DNA from: Pseudanabaena mucicola FACHB-723
GTDB taxonomy: Bacteria; Cyanobacteriota; Cyanobacteriia; Pseudanabaenales; Pseudanabaenaceae
DNA: 38,151 nucleotides
Direction: 5' to 3'
Assembly (NCBI RefSeq): GCF_014696385.1
Contig: NZ_JACJQB010000033.1
Span: 1-38,151 of the forward strand
Shown in pieces: positions 12,945 through 22,442 of this stretch. The notes under the pieces were generated by a model. That model searched no databases. It saw nothing but the letters and a program-made list of their open reading frames with translations, and was not told where the DNA came from. Each line of letters begins with the position of its first letter. The first letter of the stretch is position 1. The position numbers and the translations under genes are program-made.

Positions 12945-13031
12945 AGGGTAAATTCCCCGCCGCTCTGCGGCGTGAGTATATTCTGTCAAAAAAGAATTTA
13001 GATACCCCGTCCGCTTGCGGCGGGGTTATTC
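12945..13031. mobile_element. Double-hairpin relic resembling an IS200/IS605-type non-autonomous element
   Basis: Two related hairpins stand about 45 bp apart. The first is TTCCCCGCCGCTCTGCGGCG (stem 12958-12972). The second is TACCCCGTCCGCTTGCGGCG and continues GGGTTATTC (stem 13004-13026). Their strings align to each other as an imperfect direct repeat. Subterminal hairpins with a CCCCG...CGGGG stem and a TTATTCATTTT edge are reminiscent of the ends of IS200/IS605 elements and their short derivatives. No transposase reading frame is present between them. The mobile assignment is inference from pattern only; a simple pair of intergenic hairpins is the alternative. Confidence 0.35.
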
Positions 13032-13057
13032 ATTTTGTACTAGCTAAATTTTCTATA

Positions 13058-13088
13058 ACAAAAAAGCACCCAATGGGTGCTTTTTTGT
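13058..13088. terminator. Terminator downstream of tRNA-Gln
   Basis: 14-bp arms ACAAAAAAGCACCC (13058-13071) and GGGTGCTTTTTTGT (13075-13088) with an AAT loop. On the minus strand it follows the tRNA-Gln gene by about 15 bases and ends in a T-run. Confidence 0.85.
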
Positions 13089-13103
13089 GTTTTTTATATT
13101 TTA

Positions 13104-13175
13104 CTGGGGTGCAAGGATTCGAACCTCGGAATGGCTGGACCAAAACCAGCTGCCTTACCGCTTGGCGACACCCCA
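13104..13175 (-). tRNA. tRNA-Gln (anticodon TTG)
   Basis: Read on the minus strand this folds as a 72-nt tRNA. The acceptor stem is TGGGGTG / CACCCCA with discriminator G. The anticodon stem is GCTGG / CCAGC around the loop TTTTGGT, giving anticodon TTG for Gln. The T-arm contains GGTTCGAATCC. The 3' CCA is not encoded. It has a T-run terminator immediately downstream. Confidence 0.95.
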
Positions 13176-13286
13176 ATGTAGTGTTAGCGCGTTTTGCAAA
13201 TCTCTTTGTTTGCGCGGTACTTACTATAGCAAAGGTATATAGGGTTTTGTCAACCTGTTTTTCAAAAAAACTTTAAAACCCACCAA

Positions 13287-15845
13287 CTAATTATCTAAAA
13301 GCACAGAATCCTTAGACAGTGCTATTTGGATCTTACAGAAACCTTCAATGTGGCTACAGAAATCTTGGATATGCTGATCTGCCCAAGCCTGTCCATTTCG
13401 CAATGGAGTATCAAAACCATTGGCAAACACATGAATAATTGGCTCACTGGCATCAGGAAGCACCAGCGCCCAATCGCGATCGCTATAAAAAACCTTGACT
13501 CCATCAATCATCTCTAGCCTTTCCCGACCATAGGACTCGACCAGATGGCGCATTAGCGTACCTTTAATACTCCAAGGACAGCGCACAATTTGTTTGCGAA
13601 AATGACAACGCGGCAAATGTAAACGTACCTGCGATAGCGATCGCTGTTGCAGGGTAATCCATTCCATAATTTTGGCAATGCTAAACATGGCATCAAACCC
13701 CGGATGCAGTTGCGGGAAGATAAAGCCCATTTCTGAAGAACCACCCAGCACCACACCGTCATTATCATGACAAGCTGCCATTAATGCGGTGGGGTTAGCA
13801 CGGGTGCGGAGCACTCTACCGCCATGTTTTTCGGCAATAAGTTCGACCATGCCTGACGCAGAAACAGGCACAACCACAGTGCCGCCATGCTGTGATGACA
13901 ACACCATTTCCACCATCAAACCCGTCAGGATTTCATCACGAATTGGTTTACCTAGCTCATCGATTAAGATAAATTTTTCGCCGTTGGCATAAACCTGCAC
14001 GCCAAAATTTGCCCGCACTGCCTTGACCACATCGGTTAGTTGCGTGAGCATTTTTTCGCGATCCACTGGCGCGGGGGCAACTTCATTGAGACTGGCATTT
14101 AGCACCACCACATCGGTACTAAATTTGCCTAAAATCCTTGGTAATACTGCACCTGAGACAGCATAAACATAATCAATGACGATCTTTTTGCAATCACTAA
14201 ATCTGATCGCTTCCACATCAAGATTTTTGGCAAAGCCGCTATTGTAATAATCTAAAACACGGGTGGGATAGCTAATTTCGCCAATTTCTTCAATACGGGC
14301 ACGACGAAAATCTTCTTTAAAAAACGTCCCTTCAATTTTCTTTTCGGCGGCTTTGCCAATATTAATGCCATCAGAGTCAAGGAACTCAATCATCACACAG
14401 TCATTGCGATCGGGATGGACGCGCACATGAATACCTCCCACCACCCCAAGGCTGGGCGCAATAAATCGGGAAATCGGGATCGCCGTTGCCTCAAGGTTTT
14501 CAACATTAATCCCCACGGACATTAGTCCTGAAATTATCGATCGCGTTAACATACGACAAATCGTGCGTTGATCGCGAGACACCATCACATGGGAATTGGG
14601 ACGCAGTGTCGCCCCATAGGCTGCTCCCAGTTTGACCGCAAATTCAGGAGTAATATCCACATTGGCTAAACCTGATACCCCATTTTGTCCGAATAAATTC
14701 CGTGATGCCATTGCCCCCCAGATCAAGTTGGTGGTCAGGGTTGCCCCTGACTCCACATGTTTACTTGGCCAAATTCGCACATTTGGAAATACCCTTGCTT
14801 CTTCCCCAATTACTGAGTTAGAGCCAACCACAGCACCCTCCATCACATGGGCGCGGCGACTAATTCTGACATTACGCGAGATCGTACAAGCCCATAGATG
14901 GCACTCTTCACTAATCATGGCGCTATTGTCGATAATCGGTCGCTGAAGATCACAGTCTGCACCAATCGTGACGCGATCACCGATGACTGTGCCTGCGGAA
15001 ATTTTAGTGCGATCGCCAATTGAGCAATTACTGCCAATCAACACAGGTGGCTCAATCTGAACTGTTGGGGAAATGGCCGTATCCTTGCCAATCCATAGTC
15101 CTGTGCGGAGTTGTACATAGTCTAAATCCAGATGAACTCTGCCGCGTATCGCATCGTACTGCGCTTGGCGATAGGCATCTAAAGATCCAATATCACACCA
15201 ATAGCCATCGGCAATATAGCCATACATTGGCACATTTTTGGCTAATAACATCGGAAATAGATCGTTAGAGAAATCACTAGGCTGATTTGCTGGCAAGAAA
15301 TCTAGGACTTCTGGCTCCAAAATATAAATGCCTGTGTTGACTGTGTCTGAAAAAACTTCACTAGTCGATGGCTTTTCGAGAAATCTTCTAATGTGATCAT
15401 TTTCATCGGTGATCACCACACCAAAAGCCATGGGGTCAGTAACTCGTCGCAAAATTAAGGTTGCCTTTGATTTTTTTTCACGATGAAATTTAATGGCTTT
15501 GGTGAGGTCAAAGTCGGTAATACTATCGCCACTAATTACCACAAAGGTACTATCTAAAAGACTGGAGACATTTTTGACACAGCCCGCTGTGCCTAATGGC
15601 TGATCTTCCTCCACCACATACATCATATTTACGCCAAAGTCGGAACCATCGCCAAAATGTTCGCGGATCACATCGGGCAAGTAGTGCAGGGTGGCAATTA
15701 CTTCGCAAATGTTGTGCCGCTTTAATAAATTGAGAATATGCTCGGTAATGGGTCGATTTAGTACCGATACCATGGGTTTGGGCATATCACAGGTCAATGG
15801 GCGCAATCTTGTTCCCGAACCACCTGCCATCAATACTGCTCGCAT
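13287..15845 (-). CDS. Mannose-1-phosphate guanylyltransferase-like / phosphomannomutase-like fusion
   Basis: An 852-aa three-part protein. (1) Nucleotidyltransferase domain, about 1-235: signature MRAVLMAGGSGTRLRPLT, then PKPMVSVLNRPI and VISGDSITDFDL, typical of sugar-1-phosphate nucleotidyltransferases. (2) Left-handed beta-helix hexapeptide repeats, about 245-380. (3) A phosphomannomutase/phosphoglucomutase-like region, about 380-852. In part 3 the catalytic TASHNP loop is replaced by RVHPDRN near residue 468, the metal loop DGDGDR by YANGEK near 618, and the sugar loop GEMSGH by SSEMGF near 702, so mutase activity looks unlikely. It probably makes a GDP- or other NDP-sugar for surface polysaccharide. 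Start: the frame opens at TTG 15863, but GGAGG lies just before the ATG at 15845. It is divergent from pyrF across only 66 bp. Confidence 0.88.
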   Translation of the reverse strand: MRAVLMAGGSGTRLRPLTCDMPKPMVSVLNRPITEHILNLLKRHNICEVIATLHYLPDVIREHFGDGSDFGVNMMYVVEEDQPLGTAGCVKNVSSLLDSTFVVISGDSITDFDLTKAIKFHREKKSKATLILRRVTDPMAFGVVITDENDHIRRFLEKPSTSEVFSDTVNTGIYILEPEVLDFLPANQPSDFSNDLFPMLLAKNVPMYGYIADGYWCDIGSLDAYRQAQYDAIRGRVHLDLDYVQLRTGLWIGKDTAISPTVQIEPPVLIGSNCSIGDRTKISAGTVIGDRVTIGADCDLQRPIIDNSAMISEECHLWACTISRNVRISRRAHVMEGAVVGSNSVIGEEARVFPNVRIWPSKHVESGATLTTNLIWGAMASRNLFGQNGVSGLANVDITPEFAVKLGAAYGATLRPNSHVMVSRDQRTICRMLTRSIISGLMSVGINVENLEATAIPISRFIAPSLGVVGGIHVRVHPDRNDCVMIEFLDSDGINIGKAAEKKIEGTFFKEDFRRARIEEIGEISYPTRVLDYYNSGFAKNLDVEAIRFSDCKKIVIDYVYAVSGAVLPRILGKFSTDVVVLNASLNEVAPAPVDREKMLTQLTDVVKAVRANFGVQVYANGEKFILIDELGKPIRDEILTGLMVEMVLSSQHGGTVVVPVSASGMVELIAEKHGGRVLRTRANPTALMAACHDNDGVVLGGSSEMGFIFPQLHPGFDAMFSIAKIMEWITLQQRSLSQVRLHLPRCHFRKQIVRCPWSIKGTLMRHLVESYGRERLEMIDGVKVFYSDRDWALVLPDASEPIIHVFANGFDTPLRNGQAWADQHIQDFCSHIEGFCKIQIALSKDSVLLDN

Positions 15846-15911
15846 AGATCCTCCAAACGACAATACGTAATAGGATTAGGCTCTAGTATCGTTTAAATTC
15901 GCGATAAAACA

Positions 15912-16637
15912 ATGAAAATAAACCTTAATCCTGAAGTAACCCCTCAGTCAAAAATTATTGTGGCTTTGGATCTGCCCACAGCAGCAGAGGCGATCGCAAT
16001 ATGCGATCGCATTCCTGATGTTGAGTTCTGGAAGGTAGGGCTAGAGCTATTTATTGCCGACGGCAAGATAATTTTGCAGGAGTTGAAGGCTCGTAATAAA
16101 AAGGTTTTTTTAGATTTAAAACTCCACGATATCCCCAATACGGTTGCCTCAGCCTGTCGAGTTGCCACTAAATATGGTGCAGATTTCCTCACAATTCACG
16201 CATCGGGTGGCAAGGCGATGATGCAAGCTGCCCAAGCGGAGGTGCAGGACTCCAATACGCAATTGTTAGCCGTATCGCTGCTAACCAGTACCTCGGCAAG
16301 GGAATTAGCTTCTGATTTGCAAGTACCTTTAGAAGTTTCAGACTATGTATCCCATTTGGTCAAACTAGCGAGAGATAGTGGGCTTACAGGTATAGTTTGC
16401 TCACCCCATGAAGTGGCAAATTTGCGATCGCAAGTCAAATCAATCAATGGCGATGATTTATGCTTTGTGACTCCCGGAGTACGTCCCGCAGGTACAGCCC
16501 ATGGAGATCAAAGTCGCGTGATGACACCTAAAGATGCGATTGCCGCAGGCACAAATTATTTAGTCATCGGTAGACCGATTACGGCTGCACCTGATCCTGT
16601 CATGGCTTGGGAAAACATTTGTCAAGAATTGAGCTAA
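15912..16637 (+). CDS. pyrF: Orotidine 5'-phosphate decarboxylase
   Basis: Final step of de novo UMP synthesis: OMP to UMP plus CO2. 241 aa, TIM barrel. The catalytic D-x-K-x-x-D array is in VFLDLKLHDIPNTV (about residues 64-77). IIVALDLPTAAEA opens the fold, and FVTPGVRPAGTAHGDQSRVMTP near the C-terminus is the phosphate-binding and lid region, followed by YLVIGRPIT. A strong hairpin starts at the stop codon. Confidence 0.97.
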   Translation: MKINLNPEVTPQSKIIVALDLPTAAEAIAICDRIPDVEFWKVGLELFIADGKIILQELKARNKKVFLDLKLHDIPNTVASACRVATKYGADFLTIHASGGKAMMQAAQAEVQDSNTQLLAVSLLTSTSARELASDLQVPLEVSDYVSHLVKLARDSGLTGIVCSPHEVANLRSQVKSINGDDLCFVTPGVRPAGTAHGDQSRVMTPKDAIAAGTNYLVIGRPITAAPDPVMAWENICQELS

Positions 16638-17993: not shown

Positions 17994-20900
17994 ATGTATT
18001 CTAATCGTGGAGAAATACCGATCGAGCAAGCGATTATCCGTCAGCCTTTAACCATCACGGCTGATGCGACAGTTGCCGATGCCATTGCTCTGATGAGTGC
18101 CGAGAGACAAGCTTGCAACTTATTTTGTGATATTGATTCCGCGACAACTTTACAGTTAGACCATGCTAAAAATAGCTGCATTATTGTTACCGAAGATCAA
18201 AAATTAATTGGGATTTTGACAGAGTATGATCTCATCAAGCTCTGTGGGAACAGTACGCAATCAGTAGAGCCTAGTGAAAATACGCCACAAAACTCTATCC
18301 AAAATTTGCTGGAGACCAGCATTGTCGAGGTAATGACATACCCTGTGAGGGCATTACTGGAATGGGAATTTACAGATATCCTTGTGCCGCTTAATCGGTT
18401 TAATCGCTACAAAATTCGCCATTTACCCCTCGTTAATGATCACAACGAATTGGTAGGATTAATTACCCATGAAAGCTTGCGGCAACTCTTGCGACCTATT
18501 GATTTGTTACGCTTACGGGTTGTCAGTGAGGTCATGACGACCGATGTAGTCTATGCCAAGCCAGAGACTTCCGCCGCCCAAATTGCTCATTTGATGTCAT
18601 ACCACAATGTTAGTTCGGTGGTAATTGTGGAGCAGCAAGGACAAAAAATATTACCCGTAGGTATTTTGACGGAAGGCGATATTGTGCAGTACCTTGCGCT
18701 GGGGTTAGACCTGATGACTACCTCCGCCCAAACAGTAATGAGTTTCCTACCTACTCAGGTTCGCCCAGAGGAAACCCTATGGACAGTGAGAGAGATCATG
18801 CAAACGCAGATGGTTAACCATCTAGTGATTACTGATCAACATGGACAGATGCAGGGGGTGATCAGTCAGGGCGATCTGCTCAAAACATTGCAACCTGACG
18901 AGGTTTATCAGTTGGTTTCGATATTAGAAACCAAAATATCCCAACTAGAACAAGAAAATAGCGCACTTTTGAAAAGTCGGAACCAATTACTAGAAAGACA
19001 GGTGCAAGAATATCCGAGCGCCTTAATTAATGGTGATATGTTTCGTCAGTTTGCCGATAACAACCGTAGCGCCATTATCATTCGTGAGGTGCAAACGGGA
19101 AAAGTGCTGTATGTCAGCCCACGATACGAAGAAATATGGGGACAATCAAGTAAGGGCATATATCAAGATCCTCAAAGTTGGATGCAGTCAATTCATCCTG
19201 AAGATCGCGATCGCATTTTAGAAGCTTACAAACATACAGTTCATAGTGGATTTTTTAGCGAAGAATATCGCATTATTCGTCCTGATGGCGAAATACGATG
19301 GGTGGGGGGGCGCTGCTTTCCACTAAACAATGCTCAAGGAAAAGTCGAACAAATTGCCGCAGTTGCTGAAGACATTAGCGATCGCAAACGCCAAGATGCA
19401 TTACTAGCAGGACAAAGCCAAATATTAGAGCTACTCGCCAATGATGCAGAGCTATCGGATATTTTGACATTACTCGCCCAAATCGTTGAATCGCAAGCCA
19501 GTCATATCCATTGTTCCGTCTTGCTATTAGAAGGAAATCGACTCTTCCATCAAGCCGCACCAAGTCTGCCAGAACAATATATCCAAGCGGTCAATGGAGT
19601 TGAAATTGGGGAGGGTGTTGTCTCCTGTGGAACTGCCGCCTATCGCAAAGAAGCGGTTATTGTTACTGATATCTATAACGATCCGTTATGGCACAACTAT
19701 CGAGACATGGCAATAAGTTTAGGACTATGCGCTTGTTGGTCAAGCCCAATTTTTACAAAGTCGGGCAATCATGTTTTGGGTACTTTGGCTGTTTATTATC
19801 AAGAGATGCGCCAGCCCAACCATAGCGAAGTTGAACTCGTAAATTTTGCCGTCAATTTGGCAAGCTTGGCGATTGAGAAAAAACAAGCAGAAAATGCCCT
19901 CAGGGAAAGTGAAAGGCAACAACAAACCTTAATTAAAGCGCTGCCCGATTTGGTTATGCGAATGTCTGGCGACGGCATTTACCTAGACTTTTTTCCCCCA
20001 GATACATTTGATGTATTTGATAATGCGGAAATCATTGGTCAAAATATCTATAGCACGACTTACCCCATTAATTTAGCCAGAACGCGCATGGAATATATTC
20101 GCAAAGCTTTAGAAACAGGGGAAAGTCAAATCTATGAGCAGGAACTGACGATCAATGGACATTTCCATATCGAAGAGGTTCGCATTGCTGTCTGTGCCGA
20201 GAATGAAGTCTTAATTATTGTGCGTGATATGAGCGCACGCACCCTAGCAGAACGGGCGTTGAAACAAAGTGAACAAAAATTGAGCGCTAGTGAATCCTTG
20301 CTGAGTGCCATGTTTAACCAGTCTCCCATTGGAATGGTGATTACCGATGCGAATGGACAATTTATTCGCACTAATCCTTACTATCAACAGATGGTTGGTT
20401 ATTCTGAAAGTGAATTGGAACTGATGACCTTTAGAGATCGCACCCTAGAGGATGATCTGGCGGAAAATCTACGACTGCGCGAATTGGTGATGCAGAATGT
20501 TCATGATAGCTATCAAATAGAGAAGCGGTTGGTCAATCGCGATGGAGAAGTGATTTGGGTACGCAGCACGAGTTCTAAAATATCTGATGAAAGCATTAAA
20601 TCACCGCTTTTTGTGGGGGTAATCGAAAATATTAATGCAAGGAAACAAGCCGAGGAGTCTTTGCAAAGTCTGGTGGAGGGTACAGCGGCGCATACGGGCG
20701 CAAACTTCTTGCCAACCTTAGTAGAGTACATTGCCAAAGCGCTAGAAGTCCGTCATGTTTTTGTGACTAAAGTTGTTGGCGATACTCTCGAAATATCGAT
20801 CTCATGGAGTGATGGGCAGCTTGGCAACCCATCGATAATACCGATTCACAATACGCCATGCTCGATCACCGTCACAGAAGGTAAACTCTTTTGTCCTGCC

Positions 20901-22442
20901 AACTTATTAGAACAATTTGCAGACAATGAGATGATTAGGAACTTAGGCGCAATTTCCTATATGGGCATTGCGATCGTTAATAGTCAAGGGGAAGCAACGG
21001 GTAGCCTTTGTATTTTTGATGATAAGCCGATTACTAAATCACAAAGAGCGACTGCAATATTGCAGGTTTTTGCAGCGCGGGTTAGTGCCGAAATCGAGCG
21101 TCAAGAAGCAATCACAGCGCTCTATCAACTTAATCAAAAATTGGAATCGCGAGTAGAACAACGTACCCAAGAGCTGCTATTAGCTAATCAGCAGTTAATA
21201 TCTGTGAATACGGATTTAGCCCGTGCTACTAAACTTAAAGATGAATTTCTTGCCAATATGAGCCATGAGTTGCGGACTCCGCTCAATGCGGTGCTAGGCA
21301 TGGCAGAAGGATTGATGACTAAAGTATTTGGGGAACTAAATGAACGTCAAATGCGATCGCTATCAATTATTGAGAGTAGTGGGAAACATTTACTGGAATT
21401 AATTAATGACATTTTAGATGTTGCTAAAATCGGCTCAGGCAATCTAGAGCTAGACATCCAGCCTGTGGATGTCAAATATCTATGCCAATCTAGTCTGAGT
21501 TTCGTGAAACAAACAGCGCTAAAAAAGAACATTCAATTACAGGTCGTAATTCAACCTGAAGTTACAGCTATCAATGTCGATGAACGGCGGATGCGTCAAT
21601 CGTTAATCAATCTATTGAGCAATGCGGTTAAATTTACGCCGAACAATGGCAAGGTTGATCTGGAGGTTAAACTGGAAACTATTGACGAAAGTACCAATGA
21701 AAGTGCGATCGCACTTTCCCAAAAGCTAATCTTTGCGATTACTGATACAGGTATTGGTATTTCTCCTGAAGATCTGGACAAGTTATTTCAGCCCTTTGTC
21801 CAAATTGATAGCAGCCTCAGTCGTCAATATGCTGGCACTGGTTTGGGACTGACTTTGGTTAAAAAAATCACGGAACTCCATGGCGGCAGTATTGATGTCA
21901 GCAGTCAGGTTGGTGAGGGTAGTTGTTTCTCGATTTCTGTGCCATATATAGGAGCAGCAGAATTCAAGAAAAGTAATCTTCCATCCCCTGAACACAATAC
22001 CTCAAGTGACCATCTTAACAATGGAAATCGTGACGAGCATTCCCAAATAGATGTTAACTCATTAATTTTATTAGCCGATGATAATCCCTTTAATGTAGAA
22101 ACCTTTTCTAGTTATTTAATCAGTCAGGGATATCGCCTCATTATGGCAGCTAATGGACAGGAAGCAATTGAGCTGATATTTACCCACAAGCCTGATCTGG
22201 TAATTATGGATGTTCAAATGCCAATTATGGATGGATTAACTGCAATTAGAGAAATTCGGGCTAATCCAGATATTGCAGATATTCCTATTGTTGTGCTTAC
22301 CGCTTTGGCAATGGTTGGCGATCGTGAGAATTGTTTAGCCGTTGGCGCAGATGAATATCTCAGTAAGCCTGTACAACTATCACATCTGGGTTCAGTCATT
22401 CAAGAACAGCTCCGCCGAAGAGAGAATTGCCGCGCTAAATGA
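17994..22442 (+). CDS. Hybrid sensor histidine kinase with four CBS domains, PAS and GAF domains
   Basis: A 1482-aa soluble multisensor kinase; no membrane segment is seen. Order by residue: CBS pairs about 12-173 and 175-308 (ILTEYDLI, LITHESL, ILTEGDIV, VISQGDLL ends); coiled coil 309-345; PAS-PAC 347-470 (EYRIIRPDGEIRWV); GAF 472-635; PAS 640-757; PAS-PAC 758-890; GAF about 890-1040; coiled coil; HisKA with H1091 in MSHELRTPLNAVLG; HATPase (NLLSNAVKFTP, DTGIGIS, GTGLGLTLVKK); and a C-terminal receiver with phospho-acceptor D1406 in VIMDVQMPIMDG and K1458. CBS domains usually bind adenine nucleotides and GAF/PAS may bind small ligands or bilins, so energy-state input is plausible but inferred. 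There is no separate response regulator gene next to it. Confidence 0.95.
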   Translation: MYSNRGEIPIEQAIIRQPLTITADATVADAIALMSAERQACNLFCDIDSATTLQLDHAKNSCIIVTEDQKLIGILTEYDLIKLCGNSTQSVEPSENTPQNSIQNLLETSIVEVMTYPVRALLEWEFTDILVPLNRFNRYKIRHLPLVNDHNELVGLITHESLRQLLRPIDLLRLRVVSEVMTTDVVYAKPETSAAQIAHLMSYHNVSSVVIVEQQGQKILPVGILTEGDIVQYLALGLDLMTTSAQTVMSFLPTQVRPEETLWTVREIMQTQMVNHLVITDQHGQMQGVISQGDLLKTLQPDEVYQLVSILETKISQLEQENSALLKSRNQLLERQVQEYPSALINGDMFRQFADNNRSAIIIREVQTGKVLYVSPRYEEIWGQSSKGIYQDPQSWMQSIHPEDRDRILEAYKHTVHSGFFSEEYRIIRPDGEIRWVGGRCFPLNNAQGKVEQIAAVAEDISDRKRQDALLAGQSQILELLANDAELSDILTLLAQIVESQASHIHCSVLLLEGNRLFHQAAPSLPEQYIQAVNGVEIGEGVVSCGTAAYRKEAVIVTDIYNDPLWHNYRDMAISLGLCACWSSPIFTKSGNHVLGTLAVYYQEMRQPNHSEVELVNFAVNLASLAIEKKQAENALRESERQQQTLIKALPDLVMRMSGDGIYLDFFPPDTFDVFDNAEIIGQNIYSTTYPINLARTRMEYIRKALETGESQIYEQELTINGHFHIEEVRIAVCAENEVLIIVRDMSARTLAERALKQSEQKLSASESLLSAMFNQSPIGMVITDANGQFIRTNPYYQQMVGYSESELELMTFRDRTLEDDLAENLRLRELVMQNVHDSYQIEKRLVNRDGEVIWVRSTSSKISDESIKSPLFVGVIENINARKQAEESLQSLVEGTAAHTGANFLPTLVEYIAKALEVRHVFVTKVVGDTLEISISWSDGQLGNPSIIPIHNTPCSITVTEGKLFCPANLLEQFADNEMIRNLGAISYMGIAIVNSQGEATGSLCIFDDKPITKSQRATAILQVFAARVSAEIERQEAITALYQLNQKLESRVEQRTQELLLANQQLISVNTDLARATKLKDEFLANMSHELRTPLNAVLGMAEGLMTKVFGELNERQMRSLSIIESSGKHLLELINDILDVAKIGSGNLELDIQPVDVKYLCQSSLSFVKQTALKKNIQLQVVIQPEVTAINVDERRMRQSLINLLSNAVKFTPNNGKVDLEVKLETIDESTNESAIALSQKLIFAITDTGIGISPEDLDKLFQPFVQIDSSLSRQYAGTGLGLTLVKKITELHGGSIDVSSQVGEGSCFSISVPYIGAAEFKKSNLPSPEHNTSSDHLNNGNRDEHSQIDVNSLILLADDNPFNVETFSSYLISQGYRLIMAANGQEAIELIFTHKPDLVIMDVQMPIMDGLTAIREIRANPDIADIPIVVLTALAMVGDRENCLAVGADEYLSKPVQLSHLGSVIQEQLRRRENCRAK

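Follow-up and report, generated by a model that had tools for sequence, protein, structure and literature searches.

The gene at positions 13287 to 15845 of the window, i.e., of the whole 38,151-nt stretch of Pseudanabaena mucicola FACHB-723 analysed here, codes for a sugar nucleotidyltransferase fused to a phosphohexomutase-like half in which every catalytic loop is replaced. The tight conservation of this apparently dead half across several bacterial phyla makes a role in regulating the working half, or in holding it together, probable, and on balance we regard the product as a probable active NDP-sugar pyrophosphorylase with a fused pseudo-phosphohexomutase that regulates or assembles it.

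Domain architecture and catalytic loops

The source genome comprises 3.96 Mb in 94 contigs, and the closest relatives of the fusion protein, sharing 90–93% identity, are mostly named Pseudanabaena. A TTG codon at 15863 is an alternative start of the gene, which would add 6 aa. The features referred to in the text, with the evidence for each in parentheses, are:

13287..15845, minus strand: whole gene, 852 aa, ATG at 15845 (ORF and full-length relatives)
15153..15839, minus strand: sugar nucleotidyltransferase domain PF00483, aa 3-231 (Pfam E 8.5e-57)
15792..15824, minus strand: nucleotide-binding motif GGSGTRLRPLT, aa 8-18 (direct reading)
14793..15098, minus strand: left-handed beta-helix PF25084, aa 250-351, as in GDP-mannose pyrophosphorylases (E 3.7e-17)
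14304..14699, minus strand: mutase domain I PF02878, aa 383-514 (E 1.1e-26)
13950..14246, minus strand: mutase domain II PF02879, aa 534-632 (E 2e-08)
13623..13922, minus strand: mutase domain III PF02880, aa 642-741 (E 1.2e-07)
13401..13622, minus strand: mutase domain IV, about aa 742-815 (no Pfam hit; AlphaFold model against whole mutases)
14403..14423, minus strand: former phosphoserine loop RVHPDRN, aa 475-481, Ser replaced by H477 (alignment to 1wqa)
13974..13991, minus strand: former metal loop YANGEK, aa 619-624 (alignment to 1wqa)
13722..13739, minus strand: former sugar loop SSEMGF, aa 703-708 (alignment to 1wqa)
13440..13457, minus strand: former phosphate loop PDASEP, aa 797-802 (alignment to 1wqa)

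The NTP_transferase, beta-helix and PGM_PMM I, II and III domains all exceed their Pfam cut-offs; mutase domain I scored 98.2 bits in a scan of the own genome. An AlphaFold model, computed from a 55-sequence alignment (the window protein plus 54 loci), shows two well-folded halves (mean pLDDT 87.7, pTM 0.66). Residues 1-376 of the model superimpose on human GMPPB (7d72_E; Z 42.1, rmsd 2.0 Å, 348 aligned), and residues 383-836 have their best match in the phosphoglucomutase of T. kodakarensis (9du5_C; Z 45.7, rmsd 2.3 Å, 441 residues) and also match Pyrococcus 1wqa_A (Z 45.0, rmsd 2.6 Å, 445 aligned). Since the latter stretch aligns with whole four-domain mutases, domain IV, which was missed by Pfam, is present in the model, and the phosphohexomutase fold of the C-terminal half is predicted to be complete. 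The archaeal PMM/PGM and GlmM proteins (1wqa, 9du5, TIGR03990) are closest to the mutase half in fold and sequence, with a TIGR03990 score of the window protein of 243 bits versus a cut-off of 439. Both halves were spanned by one best stretch in none of the 60 PDB sequence matches listed.

Unlike the window protein, 1wqa has its catalytic loops, and its residue-level alignment to the window protein (E 5e-58) served as loop reference. TASHNP of 1wqa corresponds to RVHPDR, with H477 in the column of the catalytic serine, DGDADR corresponds to YANGEK, GEENGG to GSSEMG, and RASGTEP to LPDASEP. The lysine of the NGxK motif (NGIK), which follows the serine loop, is also gone, its position being occupied by E487. 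None of the patterns [ST]ASHN, ASHNP, DGD[AG]DR, GExSGH and RxSGTEP occurs in the six frames of positions 13001-16100; therefore, both a frameshift and a displaced loop are ruled out. That the mutase half would be unable to act as a phosphohexomutase is thus strongly supported by its sequence. The loop letters given in the first-pass annotation are correct according to the alignment, as are its assignment of the C-terminal half to the phosphohexomutase fold, which agrees with Pfam domains I-III and with the model over four domains, and its statement that GGSGTRLRPLT is retained in the nucleotidyltransferase part. An intact serine loop elsewhere, a possibility it had raised, was not found in the six frames searched. 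Its description of the phosphate loop as "eroded" is wrong, however; the loops have been replaced, and selection maintains them.

Conservation of the mutase half and loss of its catalytic residues

Purifying selection on the mutase half is as strong as on the active half. Among 19 genes of the Pseudanabaena group, the mutase half had a median dN/dS of 0.029, against 0.028 in the nucleotidyltransferase and 0.023 in the helix, ratios which are rough due to a dS of about 1.5, near saturation; pooled pN/pS of the same genes was 0.061 for the four loops and 0.070 for the mutase half. Together with the presence of the mutase half in roughly two thirds of the Cyanobacteriia genomes sampled, these values support the earlier suggestion that it is retained for a purpose. 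In 20 cyanobacterial representatives, the loops showed an entropy of 0.43 bits versus 0.80 bits for the mutase half, with 4% of random placements being as low, but the difference was not significant among 20 representatives from outside the cyanobacteria (P 0.13), nor when both sets were joined (P 0.14). The sequences thus suggest, moderately in cyanobacteria and weakly elsewhere, that the pocket was rebuilt.

The main rival reading, to which we give a minor though appreciable chance, is a pure structural scaffold, in which the mutase fold holds an oligomer or docks partner enzymes and the cleft binds nothing. It agrees with the finding that outside the cyanobacteria the loop columns are conserved no better than the rest of the half, with the intact fold of the AlphaFold model, and with PDB entries 7olh, 7ojs and 9g69, in which the same fold, that of the mutase GlmM, engages in protein contacts with the cyclase CdaA. 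However, the cleft-loop positions H473, P478, E623, D718, P797 and D798 are invariant or nearly so in the 55 sequences, and stay charged and specific family-wide, which speaks against an empty cleft.

The loop state was compared in 155 sequences, corresponding to 133 non-redundant fusions at 95% identity (33 cyanobacterial, two from Sericytochromatia, and 98 others) from Cyanobacteria, Chloroflexi, Bacillota, Actinomycetota and Spirochaetes, the last with three loci only. Of the 70 first loci, L074 and L075 (fragment, broken frame) did not enter the first alignment, and the partial or very divergent L068, L071 and L073 were left out of the counts. The 90 further loci are the 30 best per search and thus biased to close relatives; L104, in which the start pattern was not found, was removed from these.

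The middle metal aspartate (DxDxD), the histidine of TASHNP and the phosphate-loop arginine (RxSGT) are each found in 0/133 fusions; P797 is conserved in all of them, and 132 have an acidic residue, Asp or Glu, at position 798. Two sequences have the sugar-loop glutamate (GE), and 31 more have gaps there. The serine column holds Ser in 2/33 cyanobacterial sequences, in neither of the two from Sericytochromatia, and in 81/98 others, and the first metal aspartate occurs in 0/33 cyanobacterial sequences and 89/98 others (Sericytochromatia not included). Among these 98, the column of the third metal aspartate holds Glu in 90 sequences and Asp in five, and the NGxK lysine is retained in 23. Counting the catalytic residues S, D, D, D and R, no fusion has more than three: one sequence (L134) has three, 77 have two, 22 have one, and 33 have none. 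Of the 42 sequences from cyanobacteria, 36 have H at position 477, and S, Y and D occur there in two each; E487, E623, S703, P797, D798 and P802 are present throughout. Decay specific to the window protein is ruled out, as the first and middle aspartates, the serine-loop histidine, the NGxK lysine and the phosphate-loop arginine are gone from all 42, and the serine from 40 of them. Whether the loops are uniformly lost, as the first-pass annotation had asked, thus has a divided answer: this is true of the middle aspartate, the serine-loop histidine and the phosphate-loop arginine throughout the family, but is too simple for the serine and the first aspartate, whose loss is mainly cyanobacterial.

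In trees of the mutase half, built from every second sequence (n = 68) the only outgroups being 1wqa and GlmM of the own genome, the cyanobacteria grouped with a support of 1.0, cyanobacteria plus Sericytochromatia with 0.992, and the whole family with 0.863. The two Sericytochromatia sequences, which derive from one MAG, retain the first aspartate and have lost the serine. Since the serine column is still Ser in most fusions outside the cyanobacteria, the loss was stepwise, not uniform; in the simplest history, the phosphate loop, the serine-loop histidine and the middle aspartate would have gone before the spread of the family, and the serine and first aspartate later, towards the cyanobacteria. 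The loop replacement is both old and under selection.

The serine, the first aspartate and the glutamate in place of the third aspartate, which prevail outside cyanobacteria and Sericytochromatia, could be taken to indicate that the mutase half has another chemistry, e.g., that of a phosphatase or of a mutase with another mechanism, at least outside the cyanobacteria. We consider this unlikely: the three residues missing from all 133 fusions argue against it, as do the phosphate loop, turned acidic by a proline followed by Asp or Glu in 132 of them, and the near or complete absence of serine and first aspartate from the cyanobacterial proteins.

The survey covered 386 genomes sampled from the phylum, 186 of them from the window's class. 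In 124 of the latter, the match spans 679 aa or more (in G143 and G308 the frame ends early, and in G334 the match starts from aa 68); three (G147, G251, G296) have a split or shortened match, and 59 have only weaker matches (E about 1e-59 to 1e-67). These 59 are exactly all members of two family labels (57 + 2), with genomes of 1.6–3.7 Mb. Outside the class, 13 of 200 genomes had a near full-length match, plus one with a partial match. In the Chloroflexi (the phylum of locus L050), 61 of 121 genomes, counted by eye, have such a near full-length match, and many full-length matches were found in both the Bacillota (199 genomes) and the Actinomycetota (198 genomes) sampled. One Bacillota genome (G389) contains two distinct full-length fusions, C6 and C155, the second being 35% identical to the first, which means that paralogs exist.

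In locus L173 (genome G251, cyanobacterial, on a contig of 5.5 Mb), an in-frame deletion of about aa 415-679 has taken mutase domains I and II for the most part, along with a portion of domain III, the nucleotidyltransferase and the C-terminus being kept. The Synechocystis orthologue of the fusion is, as we assume, probably sll1496. In the parts of PMC10068330 available, a frameshift is reported for this gene, annotated as mannose-1-phosphate guanyltransferase, in Synechocystis substrain PCC-M. The L173 deletion, the early ends in G143 and G308, and the frameshift indicate that loss of the protein, or of its mutase half, can happen. Such occasional losses would fit an ancestral bifunctional fusion that persists by chance as a neutral relic. 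However, this explanation is very improbable in view of the low dN/dS of the mutase half (rough, as dS is near saturation), the fact that those 59 genomes of the class that lack a long match belong to two family labels only, and the absence of the same residues in every phylum sampled, which implies a very long persistence.

The nucleotidyltransferase half and its genomic context

The motifs GxGxRLxPLT, the PKP lysine, the GD aspartate, the EKP lysine and the DxG aspartate are all present, as expected of a sugar-1-phosphate nucleotidyltransferase with beta-helix. G11, R13, K23 and D107 are found in 132 of the 133 fusions, with one alignment gap at each position, and K158 and D218 in all. Judging from these motifs, the N-terminal part is probably an active NDP-sugar pyrophosphorylase. 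The curated cut-off of NF052502 (mannose-1-phosphate guanylyltransferase) was not reached (255 versus 440 bits), which concerns the cut-off of one model and does not prove that the specificity is a different one. Sugar or nucleotide specificity was not indicated by any NCBIfam model listed, all scores staying below the respective cut-offs. The protein tlr0611 (8x7s), which we take to be CugP, is annotated as UTP--glucose-1-phosphate uridylyltransferase and shares 34% identity with the nucleotidyltransferase half, but lacks a mutase half. Since the own genome contains a close tlr0611 homologue as a separate gene (L077, 590 bits), UDP-glucose is probably made by a separate enzyme.

Mutase activity would be available from other genes, as the own genome encodes four more mutases whose loops are intact or nearly so. 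In two loci of Actinomycetota, the gene directly downstream of the fusion carries intact mutase motifs: TASHNP, DGDADR and RPSGTEP in locus L054, and TASHNP in locus L072, where it is cut by the locus end. The neighbors in the window, pyrF and genes for a deformylase, ArgH, a GT4 glycosyltransferase and glyoxalase II, do not indicate a pathway, and those in Chloroflexi (Lgt) and Spirochaetes (a peptidase) give no functional lead. The window also encodes, at 17994-22442 on the plus strand, a 1482-aa hybrid histidine kinase with CBS, PAS, GAF, HisKA, HATPase and receiver domains.

In the Bacillota, members of one glycosyltransferase cluster are located directly upstream of the fusion in all six loci with enough flank (L056, L057, L058, L062, L064, L068); the distance from the end of the glycosyltransferase gene to the matched start of the fusion is within about 4 nt in five loci and 98 nt in the sixth. 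This arrangement suggests that the Bacillota fusion supplies the donor to the adjoining glycosyltransferase. The representative of the upstream cluster (L056) is a GT4 protein with a starch-synthase-domain hit, and the representatives of nearby clusters, each found in four loci, are a GH57 protein with branching-enzyme C-terminus, a DUF4912 protein, and a weak GH57 match; only representatives were scanned. These neighbors point, as a lead, to alpha-glucan rather than mannan synthesis in the Bacillota loci.

Proposed function and relation to described systems

In the reading that we favor, a regulated or assembled pyrophosphorylase, the nucleotidyltransferase with its beta-helix would make an NDP-sugar, and the dead half would bind a sugar phosphate, a sugar nucleotide or a partner protein in or near the former active-site cleft. 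Binding would tune or assemble the nucleotidyltransferase, as GMPPA does with GMPPB, and separate genes would supply the mutase activity. According to the portions available of PMC11228364, the non-catalytic homologue GMPPA regulates the live pyrophosphorylase GMPPB. The likeness consists in the nucleotidyltransferase-beta-helix fold and in the proposed control of a live enzyme by a dead homologue, and the mutase half, too, is a conserved homologue without catalytic residues; however, GMPPA is a dead nucleotidyltransferase on a separate chain, whereas in the window protein a dead mutase would act within the same chain. The earlier proposal of an allosteric or scaffold module is supported in part, in that mutase catalysis is lost and the half is kept under selection; the purpose would be regulation or assembly. 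More tentatively, and with somewhat less than even confidence, the fusions of at least five phyla may form a pseudo-phosphohexomutase family in which the active site has become a sensor (of sugar phosphates, sugar nucleotides or glucose-1,6-bisphosphate) controlling NDP-sugar synthesis by the same chain.

Like the window fusion, SCO1388 of S. coelicolor combines nucleotidyltransferase and mutase in one chain. The Actinomycetota fusions L178 and L179, from genomes of 9.2 and 9.9 Mb, to which it is presumably orthologous judging by architecture and genome size, likewise lack the catalytic loops, the serine being kept in one and the first aspartate in both. In the sections available of Howlett et al. 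2018 (PMC5982138), SCO1388 is described as apparently bifunctional on the basis of domain content; its disruption caused no GMP-loss phenotype and left phage sensitivity as before, combining the disruption with a mutation in either of two GMP genes gave strains that behaved like the single GMP mutants, and the authors conclude that SCO1388 contributes little GMP activity. These genetic data argue against a main GMP role for its nucleotidyltransferase half, and do not support a GDP-mannose role. In the excerpts of a screen (PMC6585502), SCO1388 appears among mannosylation genes, insertions decreased actinorhodin, and elsewhere it is called a 'downmodulator', so its loss may have some phenotype. 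That the fusion is a working bifunctional nucleotidyltransferase/phosphomannomutase, as suggested by the description of the SCO1388 architecture, can practically be dismissed, every catalytic loop being replaced and the six frames being devoid of any intact motif.

The alpha-phosphohexomutase subfamily cd05805 (MPG1_transferase) presumably represents the nucleotidyltransferase-mutase fusions. It is ranked by Neumann et al. 2022, in the parts available, with subfamilies having distinct known reactions (PMC9426568). It is thus treated as catalytic, whereas the fusion family described here lacks the catalytic residues. In the open-access literature, to which our search was confined (subscription papers and preprints were not covered), no description of the loss of mutase catalysis in the fusion family was found. 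The architecture itself is known, described as bifunctional; new is the pseudoenzyme module within it.

As both SCO1388 and the subfamily cd05805, which we take to be the fusion family, are described as working enzymes, metabolic reconstructions may credit organisms with an impossible phosphomannomutase step. If the sensor proposal is true, the family would be an exception to the statement, contained in the available parts of Neumann et al. 2022, that phosphoryl transfer is catalysed by every known superfamily member (PMC9426568). With its loss of catalysis traceable step by step from phylum to phylum, the fusion family is a natural example of how an enzyme fold can become a fused module without catalysis.
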